A stretch of 64,000 nt of DNA from Thioclava sediminum (GTDB lineage Bacteria > Pseudomonadota > Alphaproteobacteria > Rhodobacterales > Rhodobacteraceae), in contig NZ_MPZV01000005.1 in NCBI RefSeq assembly GCF_002020355.1, positions 1-64,000 of the forward strand, in the 5' to 3' direction. The notes below the pieces were generated by a model. It saw only the letters and a list, made by a program, of their open reading frames with translations. It had not been told where the DNA came from and did no database searches. The position numbers and the translations under genes are program-made. Shown one piece after another: positions 4,199 to 63,206 of this stretch (its first letter is position 1; each line of letters begins with the position of its first letter).

Positions 4199-4257
4199 GG
4201 GGGCTCTGCCCCTGGCGCATTCGCGCCTCCCCCGGGATATTTAAACCAAGGCGAAAG
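4199..4257 (+). repeat. Intergenic hairpin repeat, copy 1
   Basis: First stem GGGGCtctGCCCC, second stem GGCGC-attc-GCGCC, then CCCCCGGGATATTT and CCAAG. It lies between the 3' end of the thioesterase gene and the start of rplM. Confidence 0.85.
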
Positions 4258-4276
4258 CGCATAGAGCGTAGCACCC

Positions 4277-4705
4277 CTACCCCATCGCCCGCGGCGGGAT
4301 CGAATAAGTCATGCTCGCGCGCGCAACGGGCCGGTCGTCGCCCTCCGAATAGATCAGCGCATCGCCTACCGCGAGCACGCGGCCCAGCTTGAGTACCCGG
4401 ATCTTCGCGATCAGGTCGGCCCCAGCGGCGGGCTTGCGCATGAAATCCATGCTCGCATTCGTCGTCACCGCCAGCGCCACGCGCCCGATCCGCGCGAGGA
4501 TCGCGATATAGATCCCGACATCGGCCAGCGCGAACATGTTCGGCCCCGAGACCGTGCCGCCGGGCCGCAAATGGCGCTCTTCCACCTTCAGGCGCACCAC
4601 GAGCTCGTCCTCATCGAGCGCGTCGATCGCGAAGTCGCCTTTCACCTGCGGAAACGCCTCGTCGAGAAATTCCGCGAGCTCGCCGCGATCCATTGCCAGC
4701 GCCAT
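4277..4705 (-). CDS. PaaI-family acyl-CoA thioesterase (hotdog fold)
   Basis: 142 aa single hotdog domain. The stretch RHLRPGGTVSGPNMFALADVGIYIA resembles the helix segment of PaaI/YbgC-type thioesterases, where a Gly-rich turn and an acidic residue (Asp of ADVG) form the active site. Expected reaction is hydrolysis of a CoA thioester; the substrate is unknown. It is divergent from the crotonase-fold gene at 4769, 63 bp away, suggesting linked acyl-CoA metabolism. Confidence 0.8.
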   Translation of the reverse strand: MALAMDRGELAEFLDEAFPQVKGDFAIDALDEDELVVRLKVEERHLRPGGTVSGPNMFALADVGIYIAILARIGRVALAVTTNASMDFMRKPAAGADLIAKIRVLKLGRVLAVGDALIYSEGDDRPVARASMTYSIPPRAMG

Positions 4706-4768
4706 GCGCCCTCCCCTTTTCTTGTCCCTCGCTCGCCCCTAGAGTTTCGCCAAAGAGGAGGAGTTTCA

Positions 4769-5557
4769 ATGACCGATCTGGTGATCCGCGAGGATAATGG
4801 CGCGGTGGCGCATCTGACGATGAACAGCCCCGGCAGCCTCAACGCGCTGTCCGATGCGATGCTGGCGGCGCTCAAGGCGCGGTTTTCCGAGCTGGCCGAG
4901 GATACCGGCGTGAAGGTCGTGGTGCTGCGCGGCGCGGGCAAAGCGTTTTGCGCGGGCCATGACCTCAAGGAGATGCAGCGCGGGCGCGAAGCCGAGGATC
5001 AGGGCCGCGCCTATTTCGCCGATCTCTTCTTCCGCTGCGCCGAGGTTATGCAGATGATCCCAGCCCTGCCGCAGCCGGTGATCGCCGAGGCGCATGGCAT
5101 CGCGACCGCCGCCGGCTGTCAGCTGGTCGCGTCCTGCGATCTCGCCGTGGCGGCCGAGGGCACGCGGTTCGGGGTGAACGGGGTGAATATCGGGCTGTTC
5201 TGCTCGACCCCGATGGTGGCGCTGTCGCGTAACGTGCCGCGCAAGGTGGCCTTCGAGATGCTCACCACCGGCGAGTTCATCGATGCCGCCCGCGCCCGCG
5301 AGGTCGGGTTGGTCAATCGCATCGCGCCGCATGAGGAGCTTGGCGCCGAGACCGAGAAGCTCGCGCAGACCATCGCAGGCAAGCTGGGCGCCGCCGTGAA
5401 GATCGGCAAGCGCGCCTTCTATGATCAGGCCAATATGGACCTCGCGCAGGCCTATGAGCACACGGCCGCGGTGATGGTCGAGAATATGCTCTGGCGTGAT
5501 ACGAAGGAAGGCGTGCAGGCCTTCATCGAGAAGCGCAAGCCGGACTGGGCCGAATGA
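4769..5557 (+). CDS. Enoyl-CoA hydratase/isomerase-family protein (ECHDC3-like)
   Basis: 262 aa crotonase fold. Oxyanion-hole elements are present (FCAGHDLKEM near residues 60-69, and AAGC near 114-117). Both general acid/base glutamates of classical hydratases are replaced: the first position is Q118 (AAGCQLVASCD) and the second is G138 (FGVNGVNIG). FCSTPMVALSRNV matches the ECHDC3-type branch. True hydratase activity is therefore doubtful; thioester binding or another acyl-CoA reaction is possible. Start chosen at 4769 because of the strong AAAGAGGAGGAG ribosome site; an upstream in-frame start at 4571 would run into the thioesterase gene. Confidence 0.88.
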   Translation: MTDLVIREDNGAVAHLTMNSPGSLNALSDAMLAALKARFSELAEDTGVKVVVLRGAGKAFCAGHDLKEMQRGREAEDQGRAYFADLFFRCAEVMQMIPALPQPVIAEAHGIATAAGCQLVASCDLAVAAEGTRFGVNGVNIGLFCSTPMVALSRNVPRKVAFEMLTTGEFIDAARAREVGLVNRIAPHEELGAETEKLAQTIAGKLGAAVKIGKRAFYDQANMDLAQAYEHTAAVMVENMLWRDTKEGVQAFIEKRKPDWAE

Positions 5558-5576
5558 GGGGGCGGAGTAAACCCGC

Positions 5577-7762
<2,186 letters not shown>

Positions 7763-7775
7763 TCAAGCGCCGCGT

Positions 7776-7824
7776 GGGGGCGCGGCCCCCACACCCCCGG
7801 GATATTTTCACCAAGAGGAAGGGG
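7776..7824 (+). repeat. Intergenic hairpin repeat, copy 2
   Basis: Stem GGGGGC-gcg-GCCCCC, then CCCCCGGGATATTTT and CCAAGAGGAAG (7811-7821). No second stem. It runs into the 3' end of the acetyltransferase gene and supplies its stop codon (7808-7810). Confidence 0.85.
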
Positions 7825-8323
7825 AATGCGGGTCGCGCGGCGGGGTCTCGCAGATCATGTCGAAGTGCCGGAGCTTGCGCCCCAGCGCCCGGTTTTCCTG
7901 AAGCGACTCGCCATTGGCGCGAAATCCGAGCTTTTCGAGCACCCCGCGCGACCGGTGATTGCCTTCGAAATACCCCGCCACTAGCGGCCGCGCGTCCGGG
8001 GCGTCGAAATGCACAGCGATGACGGCGCGGCCGGCCTCGGTGGCATAGCCATTGCCCCAATGATCCCGGCCCAACCAATAGCCGAATGCGCCGACCTTTC
8101 CGATCACTCCACAAAAATCGCCTTGTCGCGTGATTCCCCAGACTCGCCCGAAATTCTCGCGATTGGCGGCGACGAATGCCTCGGCATCGGTTCTGGTGTA
8201 GGGATACGGCATCTTCGCGAGCCAGCGCGCGACCTCGAAATCATTCGCGGCACGCGTGATCGCATCGACATCTTCCGAAGTCAGGGGACGCAAGACAAGG
8301 CGCGGCGTGTCGATCCGGTGCAT
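7808..8323 (-). CDS. GNAT-family N-acetyltransferase (RimJ/RimL type)
   Basis: 171 aa. TPRLVLRPLTSEDVDAI at the N-terminus and GYWLGRDHWGNGYATEAGRAVI in the middle are typical of RimJ/RimL-like acetyl-CoA-dependent acetyltransferases; the latter contains the pyrophosphate-binding loop. NHRSRGVLEKLGF is the usual late motif. The substrate is unknown. The gene is bracketed by two inward-facing copies of the intergenic repeat: the last residues and stop lie in one copy, and the start codon abuts the other, whose AAGAGGAAG end is the only visible ribosome-site-like sequence. Confidence 0.88.
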   Translation of the reverse strand: MHRIDTPRLVLRPLTSEDVDAITRAANDFEVARWLAKMPYPYTRTDAEAFVAANRENFGRVWGITRQGDFCGVIGKVGAFGYWLGRDHWGNGYATEAGRAVIAVHFDAPDARPLVAGYFEGNHRSRGVLEKLGFRANGESLQENRALGRKLRHFDMICETPPRDPHSPSSW

Positions 8324-8376
8324 CTTCCTCTTGGCCCAAATATCCCGGAAGGGTTCGGGAGGGCAGCGCCCTCCCG
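8324..8376 (-). repeat. Intergenic hairpin repeat, copy 3
   Basis: Reverse orientation. It begins with CTTCCTCTTGG (8324-8334) directly against the acetyltransferase start codon, then AAATATCCCGG, then a longer 8-bp stem GGGAGGGC / GCCCTCCC in which the usual G/C run is altered but still paired. Confidence 0.8.
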
Positions 8377-8395
8377 TCCACGCTCTCGGCCTGCG

Positions 8396-8932
8396 TTACA
8401 TCTTGCGCAGATAGGTCCAAGTCGGAACATGGCGACCGCGCGCGAGCGACCAGCTTTCTGCATCGCCCAGATACTCGAAGCCGCAATTGGTCAGGACACG
8501 GGCCGAGCCCGGATTGTCCTGAAACACCTCGGCGAAGAGAGTGCGGGACTTGTGCGGGTTCGCCTCGATGATGGCGGCGACCGCTTCGGAGGCGAGGCCC
8601 GTATTCCAGAACCCCGGTCCAACCCAATAGCCGATCTCGGACTGGTCGTCGTCGAGACGGGTCAGCGAGACGACACCCAGAAGCTCGCCCATGCCATGAC
8701 GCGAGCCATCGATCGCCCAGACGTCTTCGACGCGGTCTTCGGCCTGTGCGCGCGTTATGAAATTCTCGGCCGTGCCGGGCGGCAGCGGATGCGGGATCGC
8801 GCGAGTGCCTTCGGCGACACGTTTATCGCCGGAATACATCTCGATCAGACCGGCATCCGAACGCCGCAGCGGGCGCAGCACGAAGCGCTCCGTTTCGATC
8901 ACGGGTTGGGTGGAAATCGTCTCCTGGTACAT
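8396..8932 (-). CDS. GNAT-family N-acetyltransferase (RimJ/RimL type), second copy
   Basis: 178 aa. ETERFVLRPLRRSDAGLIEMY and EIGYWVGPGFWNTGLASEAVAAII mark the acetyl-CoA-binding fold; NPGSARVLTNCGFEYLG is the terminal motif. It is related in architecture to the neighbouring acetyltransferase but clearly divergent in sequence. Placed between rpmA and the first GNAT gene. Target unknown; protein N-terminal or antibiotic substrates are both possible for the family. Confidence 0.88.
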   Translation of the reverse strand: MYQETISTQPVIETERFVLRPLRRSDAGLIEMYSGDKRVAEGTRAIPHPLPPGTAENFITRAQAEDRVEDVWAIDGSRHGMGELLGVVSLTRLDDDQSEIGYWVGPGFWNTGLASEAVAAIIEANPHKSRTLFAEVFQDNPGSARVLTNCGFEYLGDAESWSLARGRHVPTWTYLRKM

Positions 8933-9087
8933 GGGCGCTCCTCCTCGAAACGCGGACGAACCGGCGGCTCCTCCTGCCGTGCGGTCCTAGTAAATAAATA
9001 GGACAGTAGGATGACGATACATCCCCCGACCCGGTAAATTTTCTCGCCGCGTTTGCAAACATTTGCGTGCTGCAGTGCAACGAGAAA

Positions 9088-9113
9088 GGGGACCGGCCTT
9101 TCAGCCGATCCCC
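9088..9113 (-). terminator. Putative terminator of rplU-rpmA
   Basis: Stem GGGGACCGGC / GCCGATCCCC with one mismatch and a 6-base loop; TTTCTCG follows on the minus strand. It lies 29 bp after the rpmA stop. Confidence 0.6.
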
Positions 9114-9141
9114 CGATTTTGTGACACTTTCGTCGGTCGGG

Positions 9142-9411
9142 TTACTCGGCGGCCTCCGCAGCCGGGAGGACCGATACGAAGGTGCGGCCCTTGAGGCCTT
9201 TATGGAAGGTGACGCGGCCTTCAGCCGTTGCAAAGATGGTGTGATCCTTGCCGAGGCCGACGCCCTCACCCGGCCACCACTTGGTGCCGCGCTGACGCAC
9301 GATGATGTTGCCCGGGATCGCAGCCTGACCGCCGAACAGTTTCACGCCAAGACGACGACCCGCAGAGTCGCGGCCGTTACGGGATGAACCGCCTGCTTTC
9401 TTGTGTGCCAT
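9142..9411 (-). CDS. rpmA: 50S ribosomal protein L27
   Basis: 89 aa. [24 protein letters not shown] is the invariant L27 N-terminus, which lies near the peptidyl-transferase centre; no leader for proteolytic removal is present. It follows rplU by 12 bp. Confidence 0.98.
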
Positions 9412-9423
9412 GGGTGTCTCTCC

Positions 9424-10056
9424 TTATTTCGCGAGCTCTTTGGCCTGCTCGACCCAGTCGGGCTTGACCTTGGTAGCTTCAAAGGTTTCGGGATCGACCG
9501 AAGCGAGCTGAGCGTAGGTGGTGATGCCAGCTTCGTTCAGCTTCTTCTCGGCCGCCGGGCCGAGACCGGTGATGACCTTCAGATCGTCCGCTTCCGCGAC
9601 GGCGGCATCAGCCTTCGGCGCGGCTTTCGGAGCAGCAGCGGCCTTGGCGGGCTTGTCCGGAGCGGCTTCGCCTTTGCCACCATGCGCTGCACGACGTGCG
9701 ATCGCGGTGCCGACGGCTTCCTTCACGCCCGACTTGTCGCCGCCGGTGGCGAGGACGTCGGTGACGCGCAGCAGGGTCAGCTGCTGACGGTGACCACGGG
9801 TACGCTGCGACGAGTGCTTACGACGACGCTTGTGGTAGGTGATCACCTTGTCGGCCTTGATGTTGTCGATGACTTCCGCCTGCACGGCCGCACCTTCGAC
9901 GAGCGGGGTGCCGAACTGGGGCTTGTCGCCGCCGACCATCAGAATCTCGTTGAACTGGACTTTATCGCCAGCTTCGGCTGCGAGCAGTTCCACGCGGAGC
10001 AGATCGCCCGCCTGAACCTTGTATTGCTTGCCGCCGGTCTTGAGGACCGCAAACAT
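9424..10056 (-). CDS. rplU: 50S ribosomal protein L21 with C-terminal helix-hairpin-helix extension
   Basis: 210 aa, about twice the usual length. Residues 1-103 are canonical L21 (MFAVLKTGGKQYKVQAGD, then KRRRKHSSQRTRGHRQ). Residues ~104-155 are an Ala/Lys/Pro linker. Residues ~156-210 hold a helix-hairpin-helix-like segment (DDLKVITGLGPAAEKKLNEAG). Such fused L21 proteins are, to my knowledge, known in Rhodobacteraceae; the role of the tail is not established. The start at 10056 is used because the protein begins exactly like L21; the upstream in-frame extension overlaps the terminator region. Confidence 0.96.
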   Translation of the reverse strand: MFAVLKTGGKQYKVQAGDLLRVELLAAEAGDKVQFNEILMVGGDKPQFGTPLVEGAAVQAEVIDNIKADKVITYHKRRRKHSSQRTRGHRQQLTLLRVTDVLATGGDKSGVKEAVGTAIARRAAHGGKGEAAPDKPAKAAAAPKAAPKADAAVAEADDLKVITGLGPAAEKKLNEAGITTYAQLASVDPETFEATKVKPDWVEQAKELAK

Positions 10057-10160
10057 GGGTCTTTCCTTTTCTTCATCCGCGCCCTGTGGCCCCTGATCGG
10101 AGTTCGTTGGACCTGTCGGCCCGCCGTCGGACTGCGCGCTCCTCATGGGAGCGAAGTTGC

Positions 10161-10198
10161 AAAAACGAGGCCCGGCGGAAAGAAGACTCTCCGCCGGG
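10161..10198 (-). terminator. Rho-independent terminator of the CaiB/BaiF-family gene
   Basis: Perfect 9-bp stem CCCGGCGGA (10171-10179) / TCCGCCGGG (10190-10198); on the minus strand it is followed by CCTCGTTTTTGC. It separates this gene from rplU. Confidence 0.75.
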
Positions 10199-10248
10199 TC
10201 GGGCCGATATCGGGGATCAGCCCCCATCTGTCAAGGAAAAACGAGGTT

Positions 10249-11367
10249 TTATCCGCAATCGCTCCAGCGGGCGAGCGCCTCCGCCGCAGAGAGCCTTCGC
10301 CCCTGCGCACCCGCCTGCCCCGGCGTCGCCGAGAGGCGCGGCGCGGGCGCAGGCTGGGCGATGCCGTCGAGGTCGACATACGCCTCCCGCGCGGCGTTCT
10401 GCGGATGCGCGATGGCCTCCGCGATCGACAGCACCGGCGTCGCGCAGGCATCGCTGCCCGCGAAGACCTCGGCCCAGTCATCCCGGCTGCGAGTCGCGAA
10501 GCGCTCAGCAAAAGCGTTACGCAAGGCTGGCCAATTCGCACGGGCTTCACGCTCAGGCAAGTCCTGGGGCGCGAATCCCAACCCCGCGATCAGTGCCGCG
10601 TAGAATTGCGGCTCGAGCGCGCCCACCGCCATATGCCCGCCGCAGGCACATTCGTAGACCGTGTAGAACGGCGCGGCCCCGTCGAGCAGATTCGCCTGCC
10701 GCCGATCCGTCCACGCCCCCTGCCCGGCCATCCCGGTGATCATCGCCATCAGATGCGCCACCCCGTCGGTGATCGCGCAATCGACGACCTGCCCCCGCCC
10801 GGTCTCTCGCGCGCGCCACAGCGCCGCCAGCATCCCGAAGGCCAGATAAATTCCGCCACCGCCGAAATCGCCCAGAAGATTGAGCGGGATCGCAGGTGCC
10901 TCTCCACCCATCGCATGCAGCGCCCCGGTCAGAGACAGGTAATTGATGTCATGCCCGGCTGTTTGCGCAAGCGGCCCCTCCTGCCCCCAACCGGTCATCC
11001 TTCCATAGACCAGCGCCGGATGATCGGGGAAATCGTTAGGCCCCAGCCCAAGCCGCTCCATCACGCCTGGCCGCATCCCTTCGATCACCCCATCGGCGCG
11101 GGCGATCAGCGTGCGCACCGCCTCGCGCCCGGCGTCGGATTTGAGATCCAGCTCCACCACGTCGCGGCCCCGGTCGAGCACGTCGACCTCCAACCCCAAC
11201 ACATGGTTCTCGGCCCCGCCCGAGCCGGGCCGCGCGATGCGGATCACCTCGGCCCCGAAATCGGCCAGACACATCGCCGCAAACGGCGTCGGCCCCAGCC
11301 CGGAAATCTCGACAATGCGCAGCCTGCTGAGCGGTCCCGTCCGCTTGGCCCCCGTTCGCTTGGTCAT
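10249..11367 (-). CDS. CaiB/BaiF CoA-transferase family (alpha-methylacyl-CoA racemase-like)
   Basis: 372 aa family III CoA-transferase fold. The start LRIVEISGLGPTPFAAMCLADFGAEVIRI is characteristic. The segment AGHDINYLSLTGAL carries the His-Asp pair used as acid/base in alpha-methylacyl-CoA racemases, which favours racemase over CoA transfer. Expected role: epimerising 2-methylacyl-CoA esters during branched-chain fatty acid breakdown. Strong AAGGAGGGG ribosome site at the chosen ATG (11367). Confidence 0.88.
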   Translation of the reverse strand: MTKRTGAKRTGPLSRLRIVEISGLGPTPFAAMCLADFGAEVIRIARPGSGGAENHVLGLEVDVLDRGRDVVELDLKSDAGREAVRTLIARADGVIEGMRPGVMERLGLGPNDFPDHPALVYGRMTGWGQEGPLAQTAGHDINYLSLTGALHAMGGEAPAIPLNLLGDFGGGGIYLAFGMLAALWRARETGRGQVVDCAITDGVAHLMAMITGMAGQGAWTDRRQANLLDGAAPFYTVYECACGGHMAVGALEPQFYAALIAGLGFAPQDLPEREARANWPALRNAFAERFATRSRDDWAEVFAGSDACATPVLSIAEAIAHPQNAAREAYVDLDGIAQPAPAPRLSATPGQAGAQGRRLSAAEALARWSDCG

Positions 11368-11393
11368 GCGCCCCTCCTTATTGCCCCGTCAGA

Positions 11394-11442
11394 GGGGCTC
11401 TGCCCCGCTGGCTCCGCCAGCCCCCGGGATATTTCTGCCAAT
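11394..11442 (+). repeat. Intergenic hairpin repeat, copy 4
   Basis: Stem GGGGC-tct-GCCCC, second stem GCTGGC-tcc-GCCAGC, then CCCCCGGGATATTT and CCAA. Faces copy 5 at 11466. Confidence 0.85.
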
Positions 11443-11465
11443 CCGAAAAAGAATGCCCTCCCCTT

Positions 11466-11498
11466 CGGCTTGGATCAAATATCCCCGCCGGAGGCATC
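11466..11498 (-). repeat. Intergenic hairpin repeat, copy 5 (short subtype)
   Basis: Reverse orientation: CTTGGATCAAATATCCCCGCCGG then AGGC. Shares the CCAAG and ATATTTG parts but has only a 3-bp remnant stem. Same subtype as copy 6. Confidence 0.7.
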
Positions 11499-11521
11499 CG
11501 ACCGCGCCGCGGGCGAAGGGT

Positions 11522-13351: not shown

Positions 13352-13426
13352 GCTCGCGAGCTAAGCGGGCCTTGGCGAAAGGTCAATGGGCCATGCGCGA
13401 TGCAGCCCTCATGGGCGCCCGCGCCC

Positions 13427-13461
13427 CCTTCCCCTTGGAACAAATATCCCCGCCGGAGGCC
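13427..13461 (-). repeat. Intergenic hairpin repeat, copy 6 (short subtype)
   Basis: Reverse orientation: CCTTGGAACAAATATCCCC then GCCGGAGGCC. Lies between uup and olsB. Confidence 0.7.
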
Positions 13462-13492
13462 TCCGCCCTCTCAAGCCGCCCTGCCGCCCGGC

Positions 13493-14209: not shown

Positions 14210-14229
14210 GCGACCTCGCGGGTCATGGC

Positions 14230-14250
14230 GGCGGCCGGCTACCGGCCGCC
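14230..14250 (-). terminator. GC hairpin between bamE-like gene and olsB
   Basis: Perfect 9-bp stem GGCGGCCGG / CCGGCCGCC with loop CTA, no T tract. Could attenuate read-through into olsB or be an mRNA-processing boundary. Confidence 0.45.
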
Positions 14251-14259
14251 CCGCCGCGA

Positions 14260-14712: not shown

Positions 14713-14882
14713 AGAACCGATCCCCACCTGCAACCCCCTATTGCCTCTGACACTTCGGACTTTTAGTGACGCTTACATCATGACTGCGCCGCCCTCAAGC
14801 GCTAGAGCGCGCCGATTGGGCACTCGGGCGCATGCAAAGGGTCGCAGGACAACACCGAGCGACCCAAAACAAGGAGCCGGAC

Positions 14883-15473: not shown

Positions 15474-15530
15474 TGGCAGACGCGGTTTCGCACCGCCCGA
15501 AACCGCTTGAAAAATGGCCGGAAAAAAGGC

Positions 15531-15896: not shown

Positions 15897-15920
15897 GCCC
15901 GTCGACCCGCGCCGCACGTC

Positions 15921-19592: not shown

Positions 19593-19670
19593 CGGGCTGT
19601 GGCGCAGCCTGGTTAGCGCGTCCGTCTGGGGGACGGAAGGTCGTGAGTTCGAATCTCGCCAGCCCGACCA
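19593..19670 (+). tRNA. tRNA-Pro(GGG)
   Basis: Complete cloverleaf. Acceptor stem CGGGCTG (19593-19599) pairs with CAGCCCG (19660-19666), discriminator A, encoded CCA (19668-19670). The D-arm has GCGC on both sides. The anticodon stem is TCCGT / ACGGA with loop CTGGGGG, so the anticodon is GGG, reading CCC and CCU. The T-arm contains GTTCGAATC. The D-loop has one extra T compared with the usual proline tRNA. Confidence 0.96.
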
Positions 19671-47930: not shown

Positions 47931-47953
47931 AGGCGCCCGCGCGGCGCCTTTTT
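47931..47953 (+). terminator. Rho-independent terminator of phaR
   Basis: Perfect stem AGGCGCC / GGCGCCT, 5-base loop CGCGC, then TTTT. Confidence 0.9.
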
Positions 47954-47969
47954 CTTGGCTCATGGCCAT

Positions 47970-48023
47970 GGGGGCTCTGCCCCCTCGGTGCTGCGCACCT
48001 CACCCCCGGGATATTTTTGCCAA
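47970..48023 (+). repeat. Intergenic hairpin repeat, copy 7
   Basis: Stem GGGGGC-tct-GCCCCC, second stem GGTGC-tgc-GCACC, then CACCCCCGGGATATTTTTG and CCAA. Faces copy 8. The rest of the 298-bp phaR-thrS gap holds no gene. Confidence 0.88.
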
Positions 48024-48045
48024 CACGAACGCGCACGAGGCTTTC

Positions 48046-48103
48046 AGCTTCGGCTTGGCCGAAATATCCCGGGGGAGCGCGTCAGCGCGGGGGCAGCGCC
48101 CCC
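48046..48103 (-). repeat. Intergenic hairpin repeat, copy 8
   Basis: Reverse orientation: CGGCTTGG, AAATATCCCGGGGG, second stem GCGC-gtca-GCGC, and GGGGC-a-GCGCCCC. Inverted relative to copy 7, 22 bp apart. Confidence 0.88.
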
Positions 48104-48223
48104 TGCGACACCTCCCCCAGCCCCAAGCCATTGACAGCCGCGCGCGAGCCGCGCAAAAGGCTCGGGAAGCATATATCCCGCAACCGGGCGTTCCGTGGGC
48201 GCCAAACCGACGAGGAGGACGAC

Positions 48224-50667: not shown

Positions 50668-50700
50668 TCTTGTCTCAGCCTATGACGAAGGGGTGTCCGG

Positions 50701-52989: not shown

Positions 52990-53079
52990 CGGCTCCATCC
53001 ACGAAAATTCGGCGCAAGCTGGCGCGGCGGGGTCGAAAGGTCAAGCCTGCGTCCGGTCATAGCGGCGAGAGCGCGCCTG

Positions 53080-53138
53080 TTTCGGCTTGGTCGAAATATC
53101 CCGGGGGAGCCCGGAACGGGCGGGGGCAGAGCCCCCTA
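53080..53138 (-). repeat. Intergenic hairpin repeat, copy 9
   Basis: Reverse orientation: CGGCTTGG, AAATATCCCGGGGG, second stem GCCCG-gaa-CGGGC, stem GGGGGC-aga-GCCCCC. It overlaps the stop codon (53136-53138) of the secreted-protein gene. Confidence 0.88.
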
Positions 53139-53654
53139 TTTGCAGCCCAACGTGCCGGGCACATCGGCCAGAAGCGGCGCCATGCCCTCGGCCAGAGCGG
53201 CGGGGTAATCGGTCTGGACGGAGGCCAGCACCGCCCGACCCGCGCAATCGAGCCGCTGGGTCTTGCGCAGCGTCACCTTGCCGAACGTGTCCTTGGAGCG
53301 GATTTCAAACCCGTCCTCGGTCGCATCGTCCGACAGCACGGTATCGCCATCGAGCAGGATCGTGTGCAGCAGTTGATCATGCGCAGCCGCCAGATCAGAC
53401 CCCTGATCGGCATGGGCGCGCAGCGCGACATGGGCGGTCTTGTGCGGATCGATATCGGGGGCGGAGAACAGGATCCCACCCCCCGGCATCTCATCCGACG
53501 TCCAGCCCTGCGGCACCTTGGCCGCAATGCCAAGCGCGTCGCTCGACCAAGCGACGAGGCCCTGCCGGGCGCCCTGCCCCGTGCCTTCGGCCATAGCGGG
53601 CCCGGCGAGCAGGCCCGCCGCGACCGCAGCAATGATCAGATCAAAGCCCCGCAT
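53136..53654 (-). CDS. Secreted protein of unknown function
   Basis: 172 aa. N-terminal signal peptide ([19 protein letters not shown], cleavage likely after AMA). The mature part ([32 protein letters not shown]) has no family I recognise; two cysteines could form a disulfide. It overlaps the proS end by 14 bp and sits between proS and the lol genes, a common arrangement in this group. Confidence 0.75.
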
Positions 53655-54978: not shown

Positions 54979-55078
54979 GAGCGGTCCTTCGAGGGTTGGT
55001 GTCAGACGTTGCGTTTGGCCTAGAGGAAACGGGGGCGTTGGGCAAGATGGTGGCGCAGGTTGCGGGTGTCGCCTATGA

Positions 55079-55139
55079 GGGGGCTCCGCCCCCGGCGCAT
55101 CCGCGCCTCCCCCGGGATATTTCCGCCAAGAGGAAGGGG
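55079..55139 (+). repeat. Intergenic hairpin repeat, copy 10
   Basis: Stem GGGGGC-tcc-GCCCCC, second stem GGCGC-atcc-GCGCC, then TCCCCCGGGATATTT and CCAAGAGGAAG. Lies between divergent proS and perM, the only copy in a divergent gap. Confidence 0.9.
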
Positions 55140-55214
55140 CGCGTGCGCCCGCACTTGATTTCCCACCGCATTTCGCCACGTTAAAGCGAACGCATCACTG
55201 ACGAAGGACCGCGC

Positions 55215-56357
55215 ATGGCCCTGCCTGCCCGCCAGCAAGTCACCTATTGGTCCGTCGCCGCCTTGGTGCTGATCCTGTCGCTGTGGTGGCTGGGCAATGT
55301 CATCCTGCCCTTCATCATGGGTGGCGCGATAGCCTATTTCCTCGACCCGCTCGCAGACCGGCTGGAGAAACTTGGCCTGAGCCGCGCGGCTTCGACCGCG
55401 ATCATCGGGCTGGCGACGGTGCTGATTTTCGTCATCCTCGCGCTCGCCGTGGTGCCGATGCTGGCGCGGCAGCTGGCGCAGTTGGTCGCCCTCGCCCCCG
55501 ATCTGCTCTCCTCGTTGCAGACCTTCCTGAACGAGCGTTTCCCCAATCTCCTGCAAAACTCGGTCGTGAACGACACGCTCAATACGCTCGGCACCGCGAT
55601 CAAGGCGCGGGGGGGTGAATTGGCCGCGACCCTGCTGAGTTCGGCGATGACGCTGGTGAACGTCATCATCTTCATCGTCGTGGTGCCGGTCGTGGCCTTC
55701 TACATGTTGCTCGACTGGGATCGGATGGTGGCGAAGGTCGATGGCTGGCTGCCGCGCGATCACGTCCATACGATCCGCACCATCGCCCGCGATATCGACC
55801 GGGTGCTCTCGGGCTTCGTGCGCGGTCAGGTCACGGTCTGCCTCGTGCTCGGCGGCTTCTACGCGATCGCACTGATGGCGGCGGGGCTCGATTTCGGGCT
55901 GCTTGTGGGCTCGGTCGCAGGCGCGCTGACCTTCATCCCCTATATCGGGGCGATCATCGGCGGCGCGCTCGCCATCGGCCTTGCGCTGTTCCAGTTCTGG
56001 GGCGAGTGGTTCAATATCGGCATCGTCGCGGGCATCTTCGTGCTCGGTCAGTTTCTCGAAGGCAATTTCGTCACCCCGAAACTCGTGGGCGATTCGGTCG
56101 GGCTCCATCCGCTCTGGCTGATCTTCGCGCTGTCCGCTTTCGGCACTTTGTTCGGTTTTGTTGGCATGTTGGTCGCCGTTCCCGTCGCTGCGGTGATCGG
56201 AGTGGTTGCGCGCTTCTTCATCGACCAATATCTGCAAGGGGCGCTTTACCGAGGGCAAACGGAGCGCGAGCCGACAGCCCATTCGCCGATCTCTCTCATC
56301 AACGAGGAGACCGGGGAAGTGACGGGCGAGACCGAGACGACCGAACACGAGAGCTGA
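55215..56357 (+). CDS. AI-2E transporter family (PerM-like) membrane protein
   Basis: 380 aa with about eight hydrophobic segments. The motifs YFLDPLADRLEKLGLSRAASTAIIG, DRVLSGFVRGQVTVCLVLGGFYAIALMAAGLDFGLLVGSVAGALTFIPYIGAIIGG and GNFVTPKLVGDSVGLHPLWLIFAL are family features. Transport substrate is not established. Two bp before hdaA, so co-transcribed. Confidence 0.88.
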   Translation: MALPARQQVTYWSVAALVLILSLWWLGNVILPFIMGGAIAYFLDPLADRLEKLGLSRAASTAIIGLATVLIFVILALAVVPMLARQLAQLVALAPDLLSSLQTFLNERFPNLLQNSVVNDTLNTLGTAIKARGGELAATLLSSAMTLVNVIIFIVVVPVVAFYMLLDWDRMVAKVDGWLPRDHVHTIRTIARDIDRVLSGFVRGQVTVCLVLGGFYAIALMAAGLDFGLLVGSVAGALTFIPYIGAIIGGALAIGLALFQFWGEWFNIGIVAGIFVLGQFLEGNFVTPKLVGDSVGLHPLWLIFALSAFGTLFGFVGMLVAVPVAAVIGVVARFFIDQYLQGALYRGQTEREPTAHSPISLINEETGEVTGETETTEHES

Positions 56358-56359
56358 GA

Positions 56360-57034: not shown

Positions 57035-57084
57035 GCCGCGCAAACTGTCACGGAGCCATTACAAAATCCAACGATAAGCGCGCC

Positions 57085-59250
57085 ATGACCCAAGCAGATT
57101 TCCTCAAGACCCCCTTCCCCACGCCAATCGCGCTGCCCGAGTCGGAGATCAGCGGACCGGGCCGATTTTTCAACCGGGAACTGAGCTGGCTGGCCTTCAA
57201 CTGGCGGGTTCTGGAAGAGTCGCGCAATCCGCGTGTGCCGCTCCTGGAACGCGTGCGCTTCCTGTCGATCTCGGCCACCAACCTCGACGAATTCTACACC
57301 GTGCGCGTGGCGGGCCTGATGGAGCTTGTGCGCGAAAGCAACGTGAACGCCTCCGATGACGGGCTCACCCCGGCCGAGCAGCTGGAGAAGATCAACGCCA
57401 ACGCACGGCGACTGATGGACACCCAGCAGGCGACGTGGTCGGCGCTCAAGCGCGAGATGGAGCGCGAGGGCATCCATGTCGTGAGCCGCTCGCGGCTGAC
57501 CAAGCGCGATCTCGATTTCCTCTCGGATCACTTCCTCAACAACGTCTTCCCGGTGCTCTCGCCGCTGGCGATCGACCCCGCGCACCCCTTCCCCTTCATC
57601 CCGAATACCGGCTTCTGCCTCGCGCTGGAGCTGGAGCGGGAAAGCGATCAGCGCCGGTTGCAGGCGCTCTTGCCGATCCCGGCGCAGATCGACCGTTTCG
57701 TGCGCCTTCCGGGCGAGGCGCGGTTCCTGCCGCTCGAACAGCTTCTGATGCTGCATCTGAGCTCGCTCTTCCCGGGCTACAAGGATGTGGGCTCGTGCTC
57801 GTTCCGGGTGCTGCGCGACAGCGATCTGGAAGTCGAGGACGAGGCCGAAGATCTCGTGCGCGAGTTCGAGACCGCGCTGAAGCGCCGTCGCCGCGGGCAG
57901 GTTATCCGGATGTCGGTCTCTCCCGGCGCACCCGAGGACCTGCAGGCGCTGGTGATGCGAGAACTGCATGTCGATCCCGACGAGGTCGTCGAAGAAAAGG
58001 GTCTCGTCGGCATTGCCGACGTGAAGGAACTCATCCTGAACGAGCGGCCCGATCTGCTCTGGCCGACCTTCACCCCGCGCGTGCCCGAACGCGTGCAGGA
58101 CCACGAGGGCGACATGTTCGCCGCAATCAAGCAGAAGGACATCCTGCTGCACCACCCCTACGAGACCTTCGATCTGGTGGTGCGCTTCATCGACCAGGCG
58201 GCGAACGATCCCAACGTACTGGCGATCAAGCAGACGCTCTATCGGACGTCGAAAGACAGCCCAGTCGTCTCGTCGCTGTGTGAGGCGGCGGAGAACGGCA
58301 AATCCGTGACCGCGCTCGTGGAGCTGAAAGCCCGCTTCGACGAGGCCGCAAATATCCGCCAGTCGCGCCGTCTGGAGCGCGCGGGCGCCCATGTCGTCTA
58401 CGGGTTCATCAACTACAAGACCCACGCCAAGATCTCGACCGTCGTGCGCCGCGAGGGCGACCATCTCGTGACCTACACCCATTACGGCACGGGCAATTAC
58501 CACCCGATCACGGCGAAGATTTACACCGATCTGAGCTTCTTCACCTGCGACGCGGCACTGGGGCGCGATGCGACGAAGGTCTTCAACTACCTCTCGGGCT
58601 ATGTGCAGCCCGAGGGTCTGGAGAACCTCGCCATCTCGCCGATCACGCTGAAGCCGCGCCTGCTCGACCTGATCGACCGCGAGATCGAACACGCCAAGGC
58701 GGGCAAACCCGCGGCGATCTGGGCGAAGATGAATTCGCTGATCGAATCCGACGTGATCGACGCGCTCTACCGGGCGTCGCAGGCGGGGGTGAAAATCTCG
58801 CTCGTGATCCGCGGCATCTGCGGTATCCGCCCCGGCATCAAGGGCCTGTCCGAGAATATCCGCGTCAAATCCATCGTCGGACGGTTCTTGGAGCATTCGC
58901 GCATCGTGTGCTTCGGCAACGGCCATGCTCTGCCCTCCAACGACGCGCGGGTGTTCTTCTCCTCCGCCGACTGGATGGGGCGCAACCTCAACCGCCGGGT
59001 CGAGACGCTGGTGGAGGCCAAGAACCCCACGGTGAAGGCGCAGATCGTCAGCCAGATCATGGCGGCGAACATGGCCGACGAGGCGCAGAGCTGGATTTTG
59101 CAGCCCGACGGCAAGTTCATCCGCCACCTGCCCGACGACCGCGAGGACCTGTTCTCCTGCCACCGGTTCTTCATGGAATACCCCTCGCTCTCGGGCCGGG
59201 GTTCCGCTGGGGCAAGCGACGTTCCCGAACTTGCCCATAGCTTCGACTAG
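57085..59250 (+). CDS. ppk: Polyphosphate kinase 1
   Basis: 721 aa. It makes polyphosphate from ATP through a phosphohistidine. RFFNRELSWLAFNWRVLEES is the N-terminal domain start. The phospholipase-D-like C-terminal domains carry the phosphohistidine region THYGTGNYHPITAKIYTDL and RVFFSSADWMGRNLNRRVE. Followed 39 bp later by ppx, so one operon handles polyphosphate synthesis and breakdown. Confidence 0.97.
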   Translation: MTQADFLKTPFPTPIALPESEISGPGRFFNRELSWLAFNWRVLEESRNPRVPLLERVRFLSISATNLDEFYTVRVAGLMELVRESNVNASDDGLTPAEQLEKINANARRLMDTQQATWSALKREMEREGIHVVSRSRLTKRDLDFLSDHFLNNVFPVLSPLAIDPAHPFPFIPNTGFCLALELERESDQRRLQALLPIPAQIDRFVRLPGEARFLPLEQLLMLHLSSLFPGYKDVGSCSFRVLRDSDLEVEDEAEDLVREFETALKRRRRGQVIRMSVSPGAPEDLQALVMRELHVDPDEVVEEKGLVGIADVKELILNERPDLLWPTFTPRVPERVQDHEGDMFAAIKQKDILLHHPYETFDLVVRFIDQAANDPNVLAIKQTLYRTSKDSPVVSSLCEAAENGKSVTALVELKARFDEAANIRQSRRLERAGAHVVYGFINYKTHAKISTVVRREGDHLVTYTHYGTGNYHPITAKIYTDLSFFTCDAALGRDATKVFNYLSGYVQPEGLENLAISPITLKPRLLDLIDREIEHAKAGKPAAIWAKMNSLIESDVIDALYRASQAGVKISLVIRGICGIRPGIKGLSENIRVKSIVGRFLEHSRIVCFGNGHALPSNDARVFFSSADWMGRNLNRRVETLVEAKNPTVKAQIVSQIMAANMADEAQSWILQPDGKFIRHLPDDREDLFSCHRFFMEYPSLSGRGSAGASDVPELAHSFD

Positions 59251-59289
59251 CCCTAGCTTTGGGTGCGAACGACTCGAACGGACGGGCAG

Positions 59290-60840
59290 ATGAGCAAAGA
59301 CAAAGCGGCGCCGGCAGTTGATGACAGCGACGATTGGGATCCGTTCGGCCAGCCTCTCTTCGATGACCCGTCCGTGCGCGCGCTCTCGCGCGTCGGGGTC
59401 GTCGATATCGGCTCCAACTCGATCCGGATGGTCGTCTTCGACGGCGCGGCGCGCAGCCCCGCCTATTTCTTCAACGAGAAGGTCATGGCGGGCCTCGGCC
59501 AAGGTCTGGCGGAGACCGGCAGGCTCAATCCCGAGGGCCGCGAACGCGGGCTGACCGCGCTCAAACGCTTCGCCGCGCTCGCCGAGGGGATGGACATCGG
59601 CCCGCTCACCTGCGTCGCCACCGCTGCGATGCGCGATGCCGAGGACGGCCCCGAGTTTCACCGCAAGATCGAGAAAGACACCGGGCTGAAGGTCCATATC
59701 GTCGACGGTCTCGAAGAGGCGCGCCTCTCGGCACAAGGGGTGCTCCTAGGCTGGCCCGAGGCAGAGGGCCTCGTCTGCGATATCGGCGGCAACTCGATGG
59801 AGCTGGCCGAGATTCGCGGCGGCAAGGTCTGGCGTCGCGCCACCTCACAGCTTGGCCCCTTCCGTCTGCAGCAGATCCCGGGCGGCAAGAAGGCCATCAC
59901 CGCCCATATTCAGGCGACAATGCAGGAGCTGGCCGAGAAGGTCGGCACCGGACACGAACGCATCTACCTCGTCGGCGGCTCGTGGCGCGCCATCGCACGT
60001 CTCGACATGGAGCGGCGCGACTACCCGCTGCTGGTGCAGCACGAATACCGGATGAAGCCCGACGAGCTGGGCGAGACGATCGAGTGGATCGGCAAATCGG
60101 ACATGGAGAAGCTGCGCTCCAAGACCGGCACCTCTGCCGCGCGGATGGAACTCGTCCCGTTGGCAAGTCAGGTGCTGCGCGAGTTGATCGCCACCTTCCA
60201 GCCCAAGGAGATCGACGTCTCTGCATACGGCATCCGCGAAGGGCTGCTTTATGAGCAGATGCCCGAACGGCTGCGCCGCCGCGATCCGCTGGTGGAAGCC
60301 GCGCGCCATACCGAGCGCGTGATGAGCCGGATGCCCGGCTTCGGCAAGAAGCTCCACGCTTTCATCGAGCCGATCTTCGGGCCCCTTCCGCCCGAGAAAT
60401 TCCGCCTCGTGCGCGCGGCCTGCCTGCTGCATGACACGACGTGGCGCACCCATCCCGATTACCGCGCCGAGGCCTGTTTCGAGAACGTCACCCGCGCGAA
60501 TTATTCAGCCATGTCCCACCCCGAGCGGATCTGGCTCGGCGTGGCGCTGCTGCACCGCTACAAGAATTCGCGCGGCGGCTCGCGGCTGGAGCCGTTCCTG
60601 CCGCTGCTGACGGAAGAGCAGATTCAGGAGGCCGAGGTTCTGGGCAAGGCGATGCGCTTCGGTTCGATGTTCGCGACCCACAGCCCTGCCGATGCGGGCG
60701 AGCTGAAATATTCGGCCAAGAAGGGCGAGTTGGAACTGAAACTGACCAAGCGCGGCAAGGCGCTGATGGGCGAGGTTGCCGAGTCGCGCTTCCGCTCGCT
60801 TGCGAATGCGCTGAAGGCCGAGCCGATCATCACCGATTAA
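59290..60840 (+). CDS. ppx: Exopolyphosphatase / GppA family
   Basis: 516 aa. The ASKHA ATPase-like fold begins VGVVDIGSNSIRMVVFDG, with AMRDAEDGPEF, VCDIGGNSMELAEI and YLVGGSWRAIARLDM as phosphate-loop and catalytic regions. An HD-like helical C-terminal domain (RLVRAACLLHDTTWRTHPDYRAEACFENVT) follows. It removes terminal phosphates from polyphosphate and possibly pppGpp. Start at 59290; the in-frame start at 59263 is weaker. Confidence 0.94.
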   Translation: MSKDKAAPAVDDSDDWDPFGQPLFDDPSVRALSRVGVVDIGSNSIRMVVFDGAARSPAYFFNEKVMAGLGQGLAETGRLNPEGRERGLTALKRFAALAEGMDIGPLTCVATAAMRDAEDGPEFHRKIEKDTGLKVHIVDGLEEARLSAQGVLLGWPEAEGLVCDIGGNSMELAEIRGGKVWRRATSQLGPFRLQQIPGGKKAITAHIQATMQELAEKVGTGHERIYLVGGSWRAIARLDMERRDYPLLVQHEYRMKPDELGETIEWIGKSDMEKLRSKTGTSAARMELVPLASQVLRELIATFQPKEIDVSAYGIREGLLYEQMPERLRRRDPLVEAARHTERVMSRMPGFGKKLHAFIEPIFGPLPPEKFRLVRAACLLHDTTWRTHPDYRAEACFENVTRANYSAMSHPERIWLGVALLHRYKNSRGGSRLEPFLPLLTEEQIQEAEVLGKAMRFGSMFATHSPADAGELKYSAKKGELELKLTKRGKALMGEVAESRFRSLANALKAEPIITD

Positions 60841-61262
60841 AGCTCGATGCCGCCCTCCGGGATCTCGATGGGCCCGCCCTGGTTCGGCGCGTCCTTTTGC
60901 GGCGCATCCTCCGGCGGCTCGGTCATCAAAGGCGGCGGCGGCGCGTCCGCGTTGCGCCGCATGATGATATCGCCATTTGGCAGCCGCTCGGGCGCGCCGT
61001 AATTCGACATGTCGTCAACCAGCGCGAGGAACTGGCGCAGCTTCGGCCCCAACTGGGCTGCGGCCTCCCCCAAGCCTTTCTGCATCTCGTCGAGCTGCGG
61101 CTTCATTTCGCCCATGAGCCCCCGAAACAGCGACTGCGCCCCTTCCTGCAGCAACGAGAGCCCGCGATCGACATCGCCGCCAGCGTCGCCGCCCTCCTCC
61201 TGCGCGGAGACGGGCGTTGCCAGAAGGGCGAGCGAGAGAGCGATGACGAGCGGCTGTTTCAT
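60837..61262 (-). CDS. Small secreted protein of unknown function
   Basis: 141 aa. Signal peptide (PLVIALSLALLATPVSAQE, cleavage after VSA), helical middle (LSLLQEGAQSLFRGLMGEMKPQLDEMQKGLGEAAAQLGPKLRQFLALVDD), then a Pro-rich tail. Its coding end overlaps the ppx stop by 4 bp, convergently. Similar proteins lie at this site in relatives to my knowledge, without a known role. Confidence 0.75.
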   Translation of the reverse strand: MKQPLVIALSLALLATPVSAQEEGGDAGGDVDRGLSLLQEGAQSLFRGLMGEMKPQLDEMQKGLGEAAAQLGPKLRQFLALVDDMSNYGAPERLPNGDIIMRRNADAPPPPLMTEPPEDAPQKDAPNQGGPIEIPEGGIEL

Positions 61263-61306
61263 AGCTCCGATCCTACGCTGAAGCGGCGCGAAAATCACGC
61301 CCCCGA

Positions 61307-62314
61307 TCAGTCGATATCGACCGAGACGGGAAAATGATCCGAGGCCTGCAAAAGCGCCTCGCGCAATTCGGGCACGCGGTAGATATGCGGATCGTCGAAC
61401 GGGTGCCAGATACGCCACTTCCTCGCCCGGGCTGCCAGATCGGGCGAGAGCATCACATAATCCAGCATGGCCGAGAAATACTGCTTCTGATCGACGAGGT
61501 AGAACCGCGCGGAACTGGGGGCTGCGGCCGTATGATGCGCTTTCGACAGCCGCGCATGGGGATCGTGCAGCCGTTCCGCTTCCGGGCCACCCTCGCCCGC
61601 GACGATCTCCACGCCCGAGCGTCCGAACAGCTTCTCGTATTCATCAAGCCCCGGACCGTCGTTGAAATCGCCCAGCACGATCAGACTGTCTCCCGCCGCG
61701 AGATGCTCCTCCACGCGGCCCCGGATCCAGATCGACTGCGCCAATTGCTTGCGCCGGTTCTCGATCGCCATGCGGGTGGCTGTCTCGAGGCTCGTCGCGC
61801 CATGCGGGGCTTTCGACTTCACATGCACGCCGATCAGCCGAAGCACTTCCCCGCTCTGCGTTCCCAGCGTGACTTCGAGCGGTGGCTTGGAAAAGGTGAC
61901 CGTATCCATCCGCGCATCGATATCGAGGTCGATCCGCAGGCTGCCATCGAAGCGCGGCCACGCCTCCGAACTTTGCGGATCATGCCGCGCCGTTACGACA
62001 TCGGGGTCGTAGAGCAGCGCCAGTTCCTGCTGGGTATCGTTGGAAAAGCCCAGAAGCGCGCGACGCTGGCGCAGCCCGAACCGCTCCGCGAAGCCTTCGA
62101 GCATATCCACCGTCTTGTGGCGATGATTGTCGTCGGGCGCCTCGACAACCAGAAGCACATCGGCCTCCAGCGCGCTCATCACGATCGCGATCGCCCCGGT
62201 CTGCTGGCTGCGCGTCACGTTGTAGCGCGCCGACCATTCACTATCGTCGAGAAGCGTCCCGTTACGCGCGAAAAGGCTGTTGAACCACTCGATATTCCAG
62301 GTGGCGATCCGCAT
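61307..62314 (-). CDS. Endonuclease/exonuclease/phosphatase family protein
   Basis: 335 aa EEP fold. RIATWNIEWFN, VVEAPDDN, LGDFNDGPG and SDHFPVSV are the conserved metal/catalytic motifs. Substrate may be nucleic acid or a phosphoester. No signal peptide is visible. ATG at 62314 shares its first base with the preceding gene's stop (TGATG overlap), so coupled. Confidence 0.86.
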   Translation of the reverse strand: MRIATWNIEWFNSLFARNGTLLDDSEWSARYNVTRSQQTGAIAIVMSALEADVLLVVEAPDDNHRHKTVDMLEGFAERFGLRQRRALLGFSNDTQQELALLYDPDVVTARHDPQSSEAWPRFDGSLRIDLDIDARMDTVTFSKPPLEVTLGTQSGEVLRLIGVHVKSKAPHGATSLETATRMAIENRRKQLAQSIWIRGRVEEHLAAGDSLIVLGDFNDGPGLDEYEKLFGRSGVEIVAGEGGPEAERLHDPHARLSKAHHTAAAPSSARFYLVDQKQYFSAMLDYVMLSPDLAARARKWRIWHPFDDPHIYRVPELREALLQASDHFPVSVDID

Positions 62315-63012
62315 CACGCCTCCGCATGGCTGGCGCGGATTTCCTCCCAGGCCTTGTTGAGCGCGATCACCCGCGCCTCGGAGAGCTGCACAGCCTCCTC
62401 AGGCAGACCACGGGCAATCGCCCGGTCGGGATGCGCCTCGCGCACCTTGTTGCGCCAGACCTTGCGCACCTCGGGAAGCGGTGTGCCGGGCTCGACCTCC
62501 AGCACGGTCCACGGATCGGGATCGGCATCCTCCACGAAGGCCGAACGCATCGCGCGGAAACAGCATTCCTCGAGCCCGAAGATCCGCGCGACCTCCAGCA
62601 GGAAGGCATCCTCGCCCTCGTGGTAATCGCCATCGGCCAGCGCGATGAAGAACAGGCCTTCGAGCACGTCCTTCAGCACATCCGCGCCGGGGCCGAACAT
62701 GTTGGCGATCTTGCGGGCATAGGCGTCGAAGCCCGCCACATCGGTGCGCGCCATGTTGAAGACGCGCGCGGCATTGGCTTCCTCTTCCGGCGGGATCTGG
62801 AAAATCCGCCGGAACGCCGCCACCTCGTCGCGCGTGACCTGCCCGTCCGCCTTCGCCATCTTCGCCCCCAGCGCAATCACCGCGATGGTGAAAGCAACCG
62901 AGCGTTCCGGCGGCTGGCGCAGATTGTCGAAGACCGTCGACAGCGCCTCCCCCCGCCCGAGAGCGGAGAGCGCCTGCGCGATACGCGACCAAAGGGAGAT
63001 GGGCTTGTCCAT
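62314..63012 (-). CDS. TerB-like and J-domain protein (DjlA-like)
   Basis: 232 aa. Residues ~40-140 form a TerB helical domain (FTIAVIALGAKMAKADGQVTRDEVAAFRRIF ... FFIALADGDYHEGEDAFLLEVARIFGL). Residues ~165-230 form a J domain with the HPD motif (REAHPDRAI), recruiting DnaK. It lacks the N-terminal membrane helix of E. coli DjlA, so is probably soluble. Precedes the EEP gene. Confidence 0.88.
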   Translation of the reverse strand: MDKPISLWSRIAQALSALGRGEALSTVFDNLRQPPERSVAFTIAVIALGAKMAKADGQVTRDEVAAFRRIFQIPPEEEANAARVFNMARTDVAGFDAYARKIANMFGPGADVLKDVLEGLFFIALADGDYHEGEDAFLLEVARIFGLEECCFRAMRSAFVEDADPDPWTVLEVEPGTPLPEVRKVWRNKVREAHPDRAIARGLPEEAVQLSEARVIALNKAWEEIRASHAEA

Positions 63013-63150
63013 GGTTCAAGTCTAGCCGCGCTGCGGCGGAAATGCACCCGCGCAAATCCGCCCTGTGATTAAATCGTTGTAATGTTTTGAAATGACTGGC
63101 GGCGCGCAGAGTTCCCCCGCGCGCCGCCCAAATTCAAAGCAAAGCCCGAA

Positions 63151-63206
63151 CTTCGCCTTGGTCAAAATATCCCGGGGGGCGCGTCAGCGCGGGGGCAGAG
63201 CCCCCT
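63151..63206 (-). repeat. Intergenic hairpin repeat, copy 11
   Basis: Reverse orientation: CTTCGCCTTGG, AAAATATCCCGGGGG, second stem GCGC-gtca-GCGC, stem GGGGGC-aga-GCCCCC. Nearly identical to copies 8 and 9. Confidence 0.9.

Follow-up and report, generated by a model that had tools for sequence, protein, structure and literature searches.

The question raised by a stretch of 64,000 nucleotides from Thioclava sediminum (contig NZ_MPZV01000005.1, positions 1 to 64,000, from here on the window) is whether the short palindromic repeat that it contains at eleven places is a parasite or a bound functional site. This is an old question for elements resembling the repetitive extragenic palindromic (REP) sequences, and the present repeat makes it testable in tractable hosts, e.g. 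Paracoccus. We lean, if only slightly, towards reading the repeat as a palindromic, REP-like DNA element of the Rhodobacteraceae sensu lato, which would act at the level of the DNA and whose 23-bp tail is a putative protein recognition site.

An initial annotation of the window had listed eleven copies in both orientations, and the repeat core CCGGGATATTTNNNCCAA is indeed present at all of these places, without mismatch at nine and with one mismatch at two (11466 and 13427). Allowing up to three mismatches, the window contains 12 core matches compared to a mean of 0.83 in 100 shuffled sequences (largest 3); the twelfth match, with three mismatches, is located at 8052 within the gene 7808-8323. 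Both stems are found in seven copies (4199, 11394, 47970, 48046, 53080, 55079 and 63151), one stem in two (7776 and 8324) and a short type, with CCTCCGGCG immediately 5' of the tail, in two (11466 and 13427). The stem sequences quoted in the annotation, including the altered first stem of copy 3, could all be found in the window sequence (Table 1). Nor are the copies confined to the window: the 4.13-Mb genome (G000, in which the window is C5:1-64000) contains 122 core matches with at most one mismatch, 61 on each strand, which corresponds to about one per 34 kb, and a reversed control pattern gave no match.

The anatomy of the element was derived from 101 copies, selected for a match to GGGATATTTNNNCCAA in which a single mismatch was allowed. 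Of these, contig C1 (1.6 Mb, except for its final 2.9 kb) contributed 48, the window 11 and 20 additional copy-holding stretches the others. One or two GC-rich hairpins are followed by an unpaired 23-base tail with the consensus GGGATATTT NNR CCAAG NS GAAG, in which the spacers are free, and it is this unpaired tail that is the best conserved part of the element, the stems less so. As the picking used the first 16 positions of the tail, the GAA at positions 20-22 was left unused, and it is fixed in 99-100% of the copies. On C1 the pattern TATTTN4CAAN3GAA does not occur other than in the identified copies. Stem 1 (e.g. GGGGGC-NNN-GCCCCC) was parsed in 68 of the 101 copies, 59 of which have a middle segment sufficient for stem 2 and are referred to as long copies; the remaining 33 include the short type (CCTCCGGCG or CGCTCCGCG), a CCTTCCACNGGAAGG type and copies with an altered stem 1. 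In the long copies, as picked by GGGATATTT, a C-run, GGG and ATATTT come after stem 2, apart from single substitutions. The lengths of the stem 1 G-run and of both C-runs are mostly equal in the 68 copies (4-4-4 in 10, 5-5-5 in 24 and 6-6-6 in three), and 15 copies are 5-5-6, the additional C being mostly the final base of stem 2. Six copies (C1:1396195, C1:1541099, and on L143, L154, L155 and L157) carry another module, CCTTCCACNGGAAGGC...CACCCC, instead of the two stems in front of the same tail; the hairpin modules are therefore exchangeable.

The annotation had also suggested a covariance-model scan of this and related genomes, and mentioned similar sequences in other Rhodobacteraceae. A model (R1) based on the 59 long copies, with stem 1 as its only stem, matched 15 of the 16 genomes of the genus Thioclava at 150 scored candidates per genome, with 27 to 139 matches each (132 in the own genome) and none in G011; G007 and G010, which are without the exact core, were matched as well. 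Contig L160 of Thioclava sp. JE_KL1 codes for a ProRS identical to that of the window, in agreement with this genus. Within the family, with one genome per genus and at most 27 scored candidates per genome, 154 of 198 genomes had a match and 44 had none, which bears out that statement. The repeat has about 100 sites in the own genome and occurs in the majority of the genera that were sampled from this large family of marine and soil bacteria. When 115 genomes were drawn from across the class, R1 matched, besides the own genome, only three of the 114 others with one weak match each. Among 80 named loci around proS, 15 contain the 21 R1 matches, and these belong to Thioclava, Loktanella, Salipiger, Paracoccus, Defluviimonas, Marivivens, Shimia, Pseudosulfitobacter, Ascidiaceihabitans and one further lineage. 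The tails vary by genus in the manner of dialects, e.g. GGGATATTTAAGGCAAGATGAAG, GGGATATTTGTGCCAGAATGAAAG and AGAGTTTTTCTGGCAAGATGAAG. No curated family of Rfam matches the repeat, as at the gathering score the window yielded only a tRNA (19593-19667). Among the papers listed by searches of one open-access library no description of the repeat was seen, and an earlier description elsewhere is possible.

Compensatory changes in the second stem had been taken as a sign that folded RNA or DNA is selected, and the pairing itself holds up in the larger set. Stem 2 occurs in 29 different sequences in the 59 long copies and forms 4.83 Watson-Crick pairs on average, compared to 2.75 after shuffling and 2.93 after an exchange of halves between copies (at most 3.27 over 200 trials), and even the weakest real copy has three pairs; copies have stem types in common, and these pair counts are therefore not independent. 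At one orthologous site (window 48008 versus L304) GGTGC/GCACC is replaced by the likewise paired GGCGC/GCGCC in the relative. Covariation among paralogues alone is no proof of selection on the fold, because much of the variation between copies may stem from exchange among them, and the choice between RNA and DNA, which the annotation had left open, leans to DNA. Under a scoring that treats G-T and A-C alike there is no wobble in 285 stem 2 pairs, whereas the 83 terminators of C1 consist of 721 Watson-Crick, 25 G-T, 6 A-C and 6 other pairs (758 in total; Fisher p 4e-4, the stem 2 pairs again not being independent). Of the 288 stem 2 pairs counted under an alternative scoring, 287 were Watson-Crick and one was T-C. 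The terminators thus have the surplus of G-T pairs that RNA should show, and stem 2 lacks it. RNAalifold, applied to a MAFFT alignment, recovered stem 1 with two-sided changes in one of eight pairs and a covariation term of -0.17, and missed stem 2, because its two registers stay unaligned; a 2-bp helix within the tail offered by the program is not believed. Single copies fold only weakly better than their shuffles (z -0.6 to -1.9), whereas the folding of the tail-to-tail pair is strong (z -6.5 for DNA, -8.2 for RNA).

The position of the copies relative to genes bears on the rival idea of an RNA element in 3' untranslated regions, in which exonuclease-blocking hairpins would precede an AU-rich site (AUAUUU) where transcription terminates or RNase E cleaves. 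For the window, the annotation had assigned ten copies to co-directional gene pairs and one to divergent genes; according to our own gene calls nine are co-directional (six on the strand of the genes, three opposite) and two divergent (4199 and 55079). Its statement that no copy lies in the middle of a gene stands for all eleven, with the tail of the copy at 7776 overlapping the final 14 bases of the gene 7808-8323. On C1, where the settings were taken from our own gene finder, the 48 copies comprise 18 in convergent and 4 in divergent regions, 11 in co-directional regions on the strand of the genes and another 11 in such regions on the other strand, 3 in called genes and 1 at the contig edge. 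Per kb of intergenic C1 DNA this amounts to 0.81 copies in convergent, 0.27 in co-directional and 0.09 in divergent regions (chi-square p 2e-6). Copies are often found close behind stop codons, and the first hairpin frequently begins at the stop, as would suit an RNA element. In the same direction point the U-rich bases behind the C-run, which R1 also found in other genera (ATATTT, GTATTT, GTTTAT and GTTTTT), the mostly equal lengths of the stem 1 G-run and the two C-runs, which would make two alternative folds possible, and the copy C1:449469, which does not belong to the 59 long copies and forms a near-classical terminator. The orientation of co-directional copies in the set of 101 leans to the strand of the gene as well (32 versus 22), but this is not a significant preference (p 0.22). 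Likewise there is no strand bias along C1 (25 plus versus 23 minus), which probably lies on one replichore, judging from the matching positions in G014. Neighboring pairs less than 120 bp apart are arranged tail to tail in 13 of 13 cases, with 5-17 nt between the tails.

We also rejected the possibility that copies stand in for terminators. Using a simple hairpin and T-run finder of our own, and gene ends whose downstream space was 90 bases or more, a classical terminator was detected at 10 of 43 C1 gene ends with a copy and at 90 of 417 without, so that terminators are neither depleted nor enriched at copy-bearing ends. The element shares with intrinsic terminators a GC-rich hairpin at gene ends and AU-rich bases downstream. 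Unlike in a terminator, however, a C-run and purines separate the hairpin from the AU-rich bases, 14 more bases with fixed letters follow, and there is no clear strand preference; a hairpin followed directly by a U-run was not found in the 59 long copies, and both strands are used. In R. sphaeroides no motif was reported upstream of PNPase-affected RNA 3' ends in the sections of PMC7866481 on this point, which was no test of the present repeat. Taken together, the lack of a significant orientation preference, the missing wobble in stem 2, the copy pair past the phaR terminator and copy 10 between divergent genes favor DNA over RNA, and we consider the RNA element unlikely.

The view of a DNA element is further based on the behavior of the copies at orthologous sites. 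A 400-kb stretch of the relative G009 (about 93% identical) covers 17 C1 copies, of which 16, including C1:398676, align to an element or to remnants of one at the corresponding position; the 17th (C1:536088) is located at an inversion. Some copies have decayed in G009, e.g. at C1:520534 and 579497. From the side of G009, 15 core matches comprise 10 with the element at the same C1 site, one with remains only, one in sequence that is coding in both genomes and three left unaligned by our script, as they are located at an inversion. The match with remains only is the G009 copy S9:42405, which aligns to a C1 site with the second half of the tail alone; this could represent either a gain in G009 or a loss here. 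With this one ambiguous site, and one relative compared, no clean empty site was seen over the 400 kb. An inversion of about 12.7 kb distinguishes C1:523-536 kb (L057) from G009 (L349) and has its breakpoints at element copies. Furthermore, the sequence between the tails of the pair C1:337815/337858 (L047:17815-17875) is inverted in G009, as if the loop of a hairpin had been flipped.

The fixed letters of the tail change more slowly than its spacers. In 51 comparisons at 22 sites, which are not independent as they include several relatives per site, decayed copies and two G009 comparisons that enter twice, the differences amount to 5 of 153 positions for GAA and 39 of 204 for the spacers (p 3e-6); the corresponding values are 50 of 663 for the picking core and 38 of 153 for the partly fixed positions 12, 17 and 23. 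With one comparison per site against G009, GAA differs at 2 of 60, the core at 14 of 260 and the spacers at 11 of 80 positions (p 0.04 and 0.02). Between relatives, with the own genome omitted, the numbers are 21 of 243 (GAA), 193 of 1053 (core) and 116 of 324 (spacers). The flanks differ by 18% downstream and 22% upstream. Constraint is therefore also present at positions which were not used for picking.

The history of single sites is more varied. Behind the gene 53136-53654 the same copy is kept in G000, G012, G014, G006 and G009, a copy with different stem 2 and tail occupies the same spot in G003 and G001, G013 has a nearby copy with a mutated core, G015 has remains at most, and no element was found in G008, G002, G005, G010, G007 and G011. 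Six genomes (G000, G012, G014, G006, G009 and G013) carry the pair located between phaR and thrS, G015 has it in decayed form, and at thrS of the other genomes of the genus that were inspected it was not seen. In the divergent region of proS no precise empty site was found; the middle of this region could not be aligned in more distant species. That stems and tails have changed at one spot suggests exchange among copies or re-use of the site.

On C1, two stretches (0.3-337 kb and 876-1,314 kb) are free of copies, though they contain convergent junctions like the rest of the contig, and similar gaps are present in G014, where among the first 100 of 117 places one exact-core copy lies in one of the gaps. 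Twenty proteins sampled from the copy-free stretches include transporters, dehydrogenases, a GmrSD restriction protein and similar, and five were without a family at threshold; this accessory look refers to the proteins sampled from the two stretches themselves. The copies thus seem to track core-type DNA.

Such stretches, together with the slower change of GAA compared to the spacers and the lack of a clean empty site, speak against a selfish and still mobile miniature element (a REP or a miniature inverted-repeat transposable element) that has no function and is mobilized in trans. A match to PF01797, the Y1 transposase of the REP-associated tyrosine transposase (RAYT) type, was not found in the own genome and is present in three of the 16 genomes of the genus. 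The description in PMC3733652 (2013) nevertheless has the CGTC REPs of Alphaproteobacteria likewise without a dedicated transposase; moreover, the dispersed, palindromic and paired copies with their recurring stem types and genome-specific dialects, and the possible gain at S9:42405, are what one could cite for a mobile element. On balance we regard it as quite improbable.

Outside the chromosomes, a search of plasmids with one copy gave 10 records from Paracoccus, Salipiger, Leisingera, Ruegeria and Tritonibacter; the matches lie between listed genes in the two annotated regions inspected, and two others are unannotated there. In viral contigs the exact tail pattern had a single match (L344:12500-12548), between terminase and portal genes, and there was no match to the GGCAAGATGAAG dialect. 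As the match sits amid the genes of a gene transfer agent (GTA) cluster, this "viral" contig looks like a GTA locus; its Pfam matches are GTA_TIM, portal, capsid, protease and terminase. A DNA-uptake or packaging signal, maintained by biased transfer in natural transformation or by gene transfer agents, would fit this location, the dialects of the genera, the absence of a clear orientation preference, the concentration of copies outside the two accessory-type stretches and the slower change of the fixed letters. The range of the repeat is similar to that of the gene transfer agent of Rhodobacterales. The DNA uptake sequences of Neisseriaceae and Pasteurellaceae resemble the repeat in their inverted pairs at gene ends, their genus dialects and their bias to the core genome. 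However, known uptake sequences occur about once per 1-2 kb, i.e. the present repeat at one per 34 kb is about 20 times sparser. It is also nearly absent from genes (3 of 48 copies on C1) and carries structured palindromes, and a paired stem is not known from uptake sequences. Such a signal therefore appears highly improbable.

With 122 core matches in the genome, 3 of 48 copies on C1 in called genes, its palindromes and 13 tail-to-tail pairs among 101 copies, the repeat shares the high copy number, the extragenic location, the palindromic form and the frequent inverted dimers of REP sequences. Like the REPs and bacterial interspersed mosaic elements (BIMEs) with RAYT of the GTAG type in E. 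coli and Pseudomonas (partly after the description in PMC3733652), it is short and palindromic, has more than 100 copies per genome that are nearly all intergenic, forms frequent inverted pairs and falls into lineage-specific sequence types. It differs from them in the absence of the GTAG consensus, both from the alignment of the 59 copies and from the tail logo, in the lack of a Y1 transposase match, in up to two independent stems and in the conservation of a 23-base unpaired tail instead of a palindrome. With the CGTC REPs, as described in PMC3733652, it shares the alphaproteobacterial host, the paired palindrome and the lack of a known dedicated transposase; a by-eye comparison with that description revealed neither a CGTC, TGTC or CCTC tag nor a single 8-9 bp stem with a CCA-like tail. 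The main text of PMC3733652 does not name Rhodobacter, Paracoccus or Ruegeria. Since tags and Y1 transposase were sought and are absent, we do not assign the repeat to GTAG or CGTC REPs. It breaks the usual definition of a REP, which includes a tag and a RAYT, yet its non-palindromic tail has a selection-like constraint and genus dialects.

In E. coli, REP and BIME elements have been proposed to insulate transcription units or to relieve supercoiling. By analogy, we assume for the REP-like DNA element that the tail GGGATATTT NNR CCAAG NS GAAG would be recognized by a conserved protein and that the adjoining GC-rich palindromes might supply a hairpin or cruciform arm. The copies would be old and inherited at fixed sites, chiefly downstream of core genes, and the dialects of the single lineages would therefore result from exchange among copies together with selection on the tail, which keeps them alike. 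The likeliest role would be that of a protein-bound mark of gene ends, which insulates transcription units or relieves supercoiling and would be most useful between convergent genes. Of all this, the copy number, the range, the anatomy, the paired stems, the sites in common with close relatives, the slower change of the fixed tail letters and the lack of a clear orientation preference are observations, whereas the binding of a protein and its effect are inferred.

Several observations weigh against this interpretation. No binding protein turned up, although no search aimed at one was made. Picking by the core lowers the apparent change at positions 1-9 and 13-16 on the side of the own genome (the 50 of 663 given above), and the GAA and the relative-to-relative counts are therefore the only fair tests; positions 17 and 23, which are mostly G, change about as fast as the spacers. 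Short gene conversion could partly explain the slower change, because every donor copy has identical fixed letters. Not every copy is needed, since several have decayed in relatives and the element is missing from the two examined sites in about half of the genus, and the two copy-free stretches of C1 fit age as well as function. Finally, short stems may hide wobble near their ends, the scoring of a 5-bp stem is less sensitive to wobble than that of a long terminator stem, and templated repair of palindromes could account for the missing wobble pairs.

A wider version of the idea is possible but rather doubtful: the tail may be the putative site of a family-wide, sequence-specific DNA-binding system, whether chromosome organizer, gene-end insulator or transfer signal, with a specificity that shifts from genus to genus, and the palindromes may be cruciform arms read or made by a protein rather than RNA hairpins. 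If this were true, about 100 sites in each genome would switch dialect in concert, and some would do so without changing their position. For either version the tail offers a defined bait for its putative protein.

The positions of the copies in the window, together with a terminator-like hairpin near copies 7 and 8, are given in Table 1; the genes around them include rplM, obgE, thrS, proS and a lolC/E gene.

Table 1. Copies of the repeat in the 64-kb window and the hairpin behind phaR.
Feature	Position	Strand	Description
Copy 1	4195..4256	+	two stems and tail; divergent genes on both sides (own calls)
Copy 2	7774..7821	+	one stem and tail; strand opposite to co-directional genes; tail overlaps the end of the GNAT gene 7808-8323
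Copy 3	8324..8376	-	one stem, GGGAGGGC/GCCCTCCC, and tail
Copy 4	11391..11448	+	two stems and tail; left member of tail-to-tail pair with copy 5
Copy 5	11463..11498	-	short type, GATGCCTCCGGCG before the tail; right member of pair with copy 4
Copy 6	13428..13463	-	short type
Copy 7	47966..48030	+	two stems and tail; left member of tail-to-tail pair past the phaR terminator
Copy 8	48048..48106	-	two stems and tail; right member of pair with copy 7
Copy 9	53080..53140	-	two stems and tail; immediately 3' of the TAG stop of gene 53136-53654
Copy 10	55076..55136	+	two stems and tail; between the divergent starts of proS and gene 55215-56357
Copy 11	63151..63208	-	two stems and tail
Terminator-like hairpin behind phaR, outside the element	47931..47954	+	GGCGCC...GGCGCCTTTTTC; ends before copies 7 and 8

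Two observations concern neighboring loci. The final 46 bases before thrS (window 48178-48223, CCGCAACCGGGCGTTCCGTGGGCGCCAAACCGACGAGGAGGA...) are nearly unchanged in the inspected genomes of the genus, down to 77% identity of the thrS stretch, and this part is possibly a regulatory leader of thrS. In front of a phasin-like gene upstream of phaR (L300:758-900) there is an inverted repeat, TGCTGCGCCGCAGCA, which is similar in the inspected relatives and looks like a PhaR operator.

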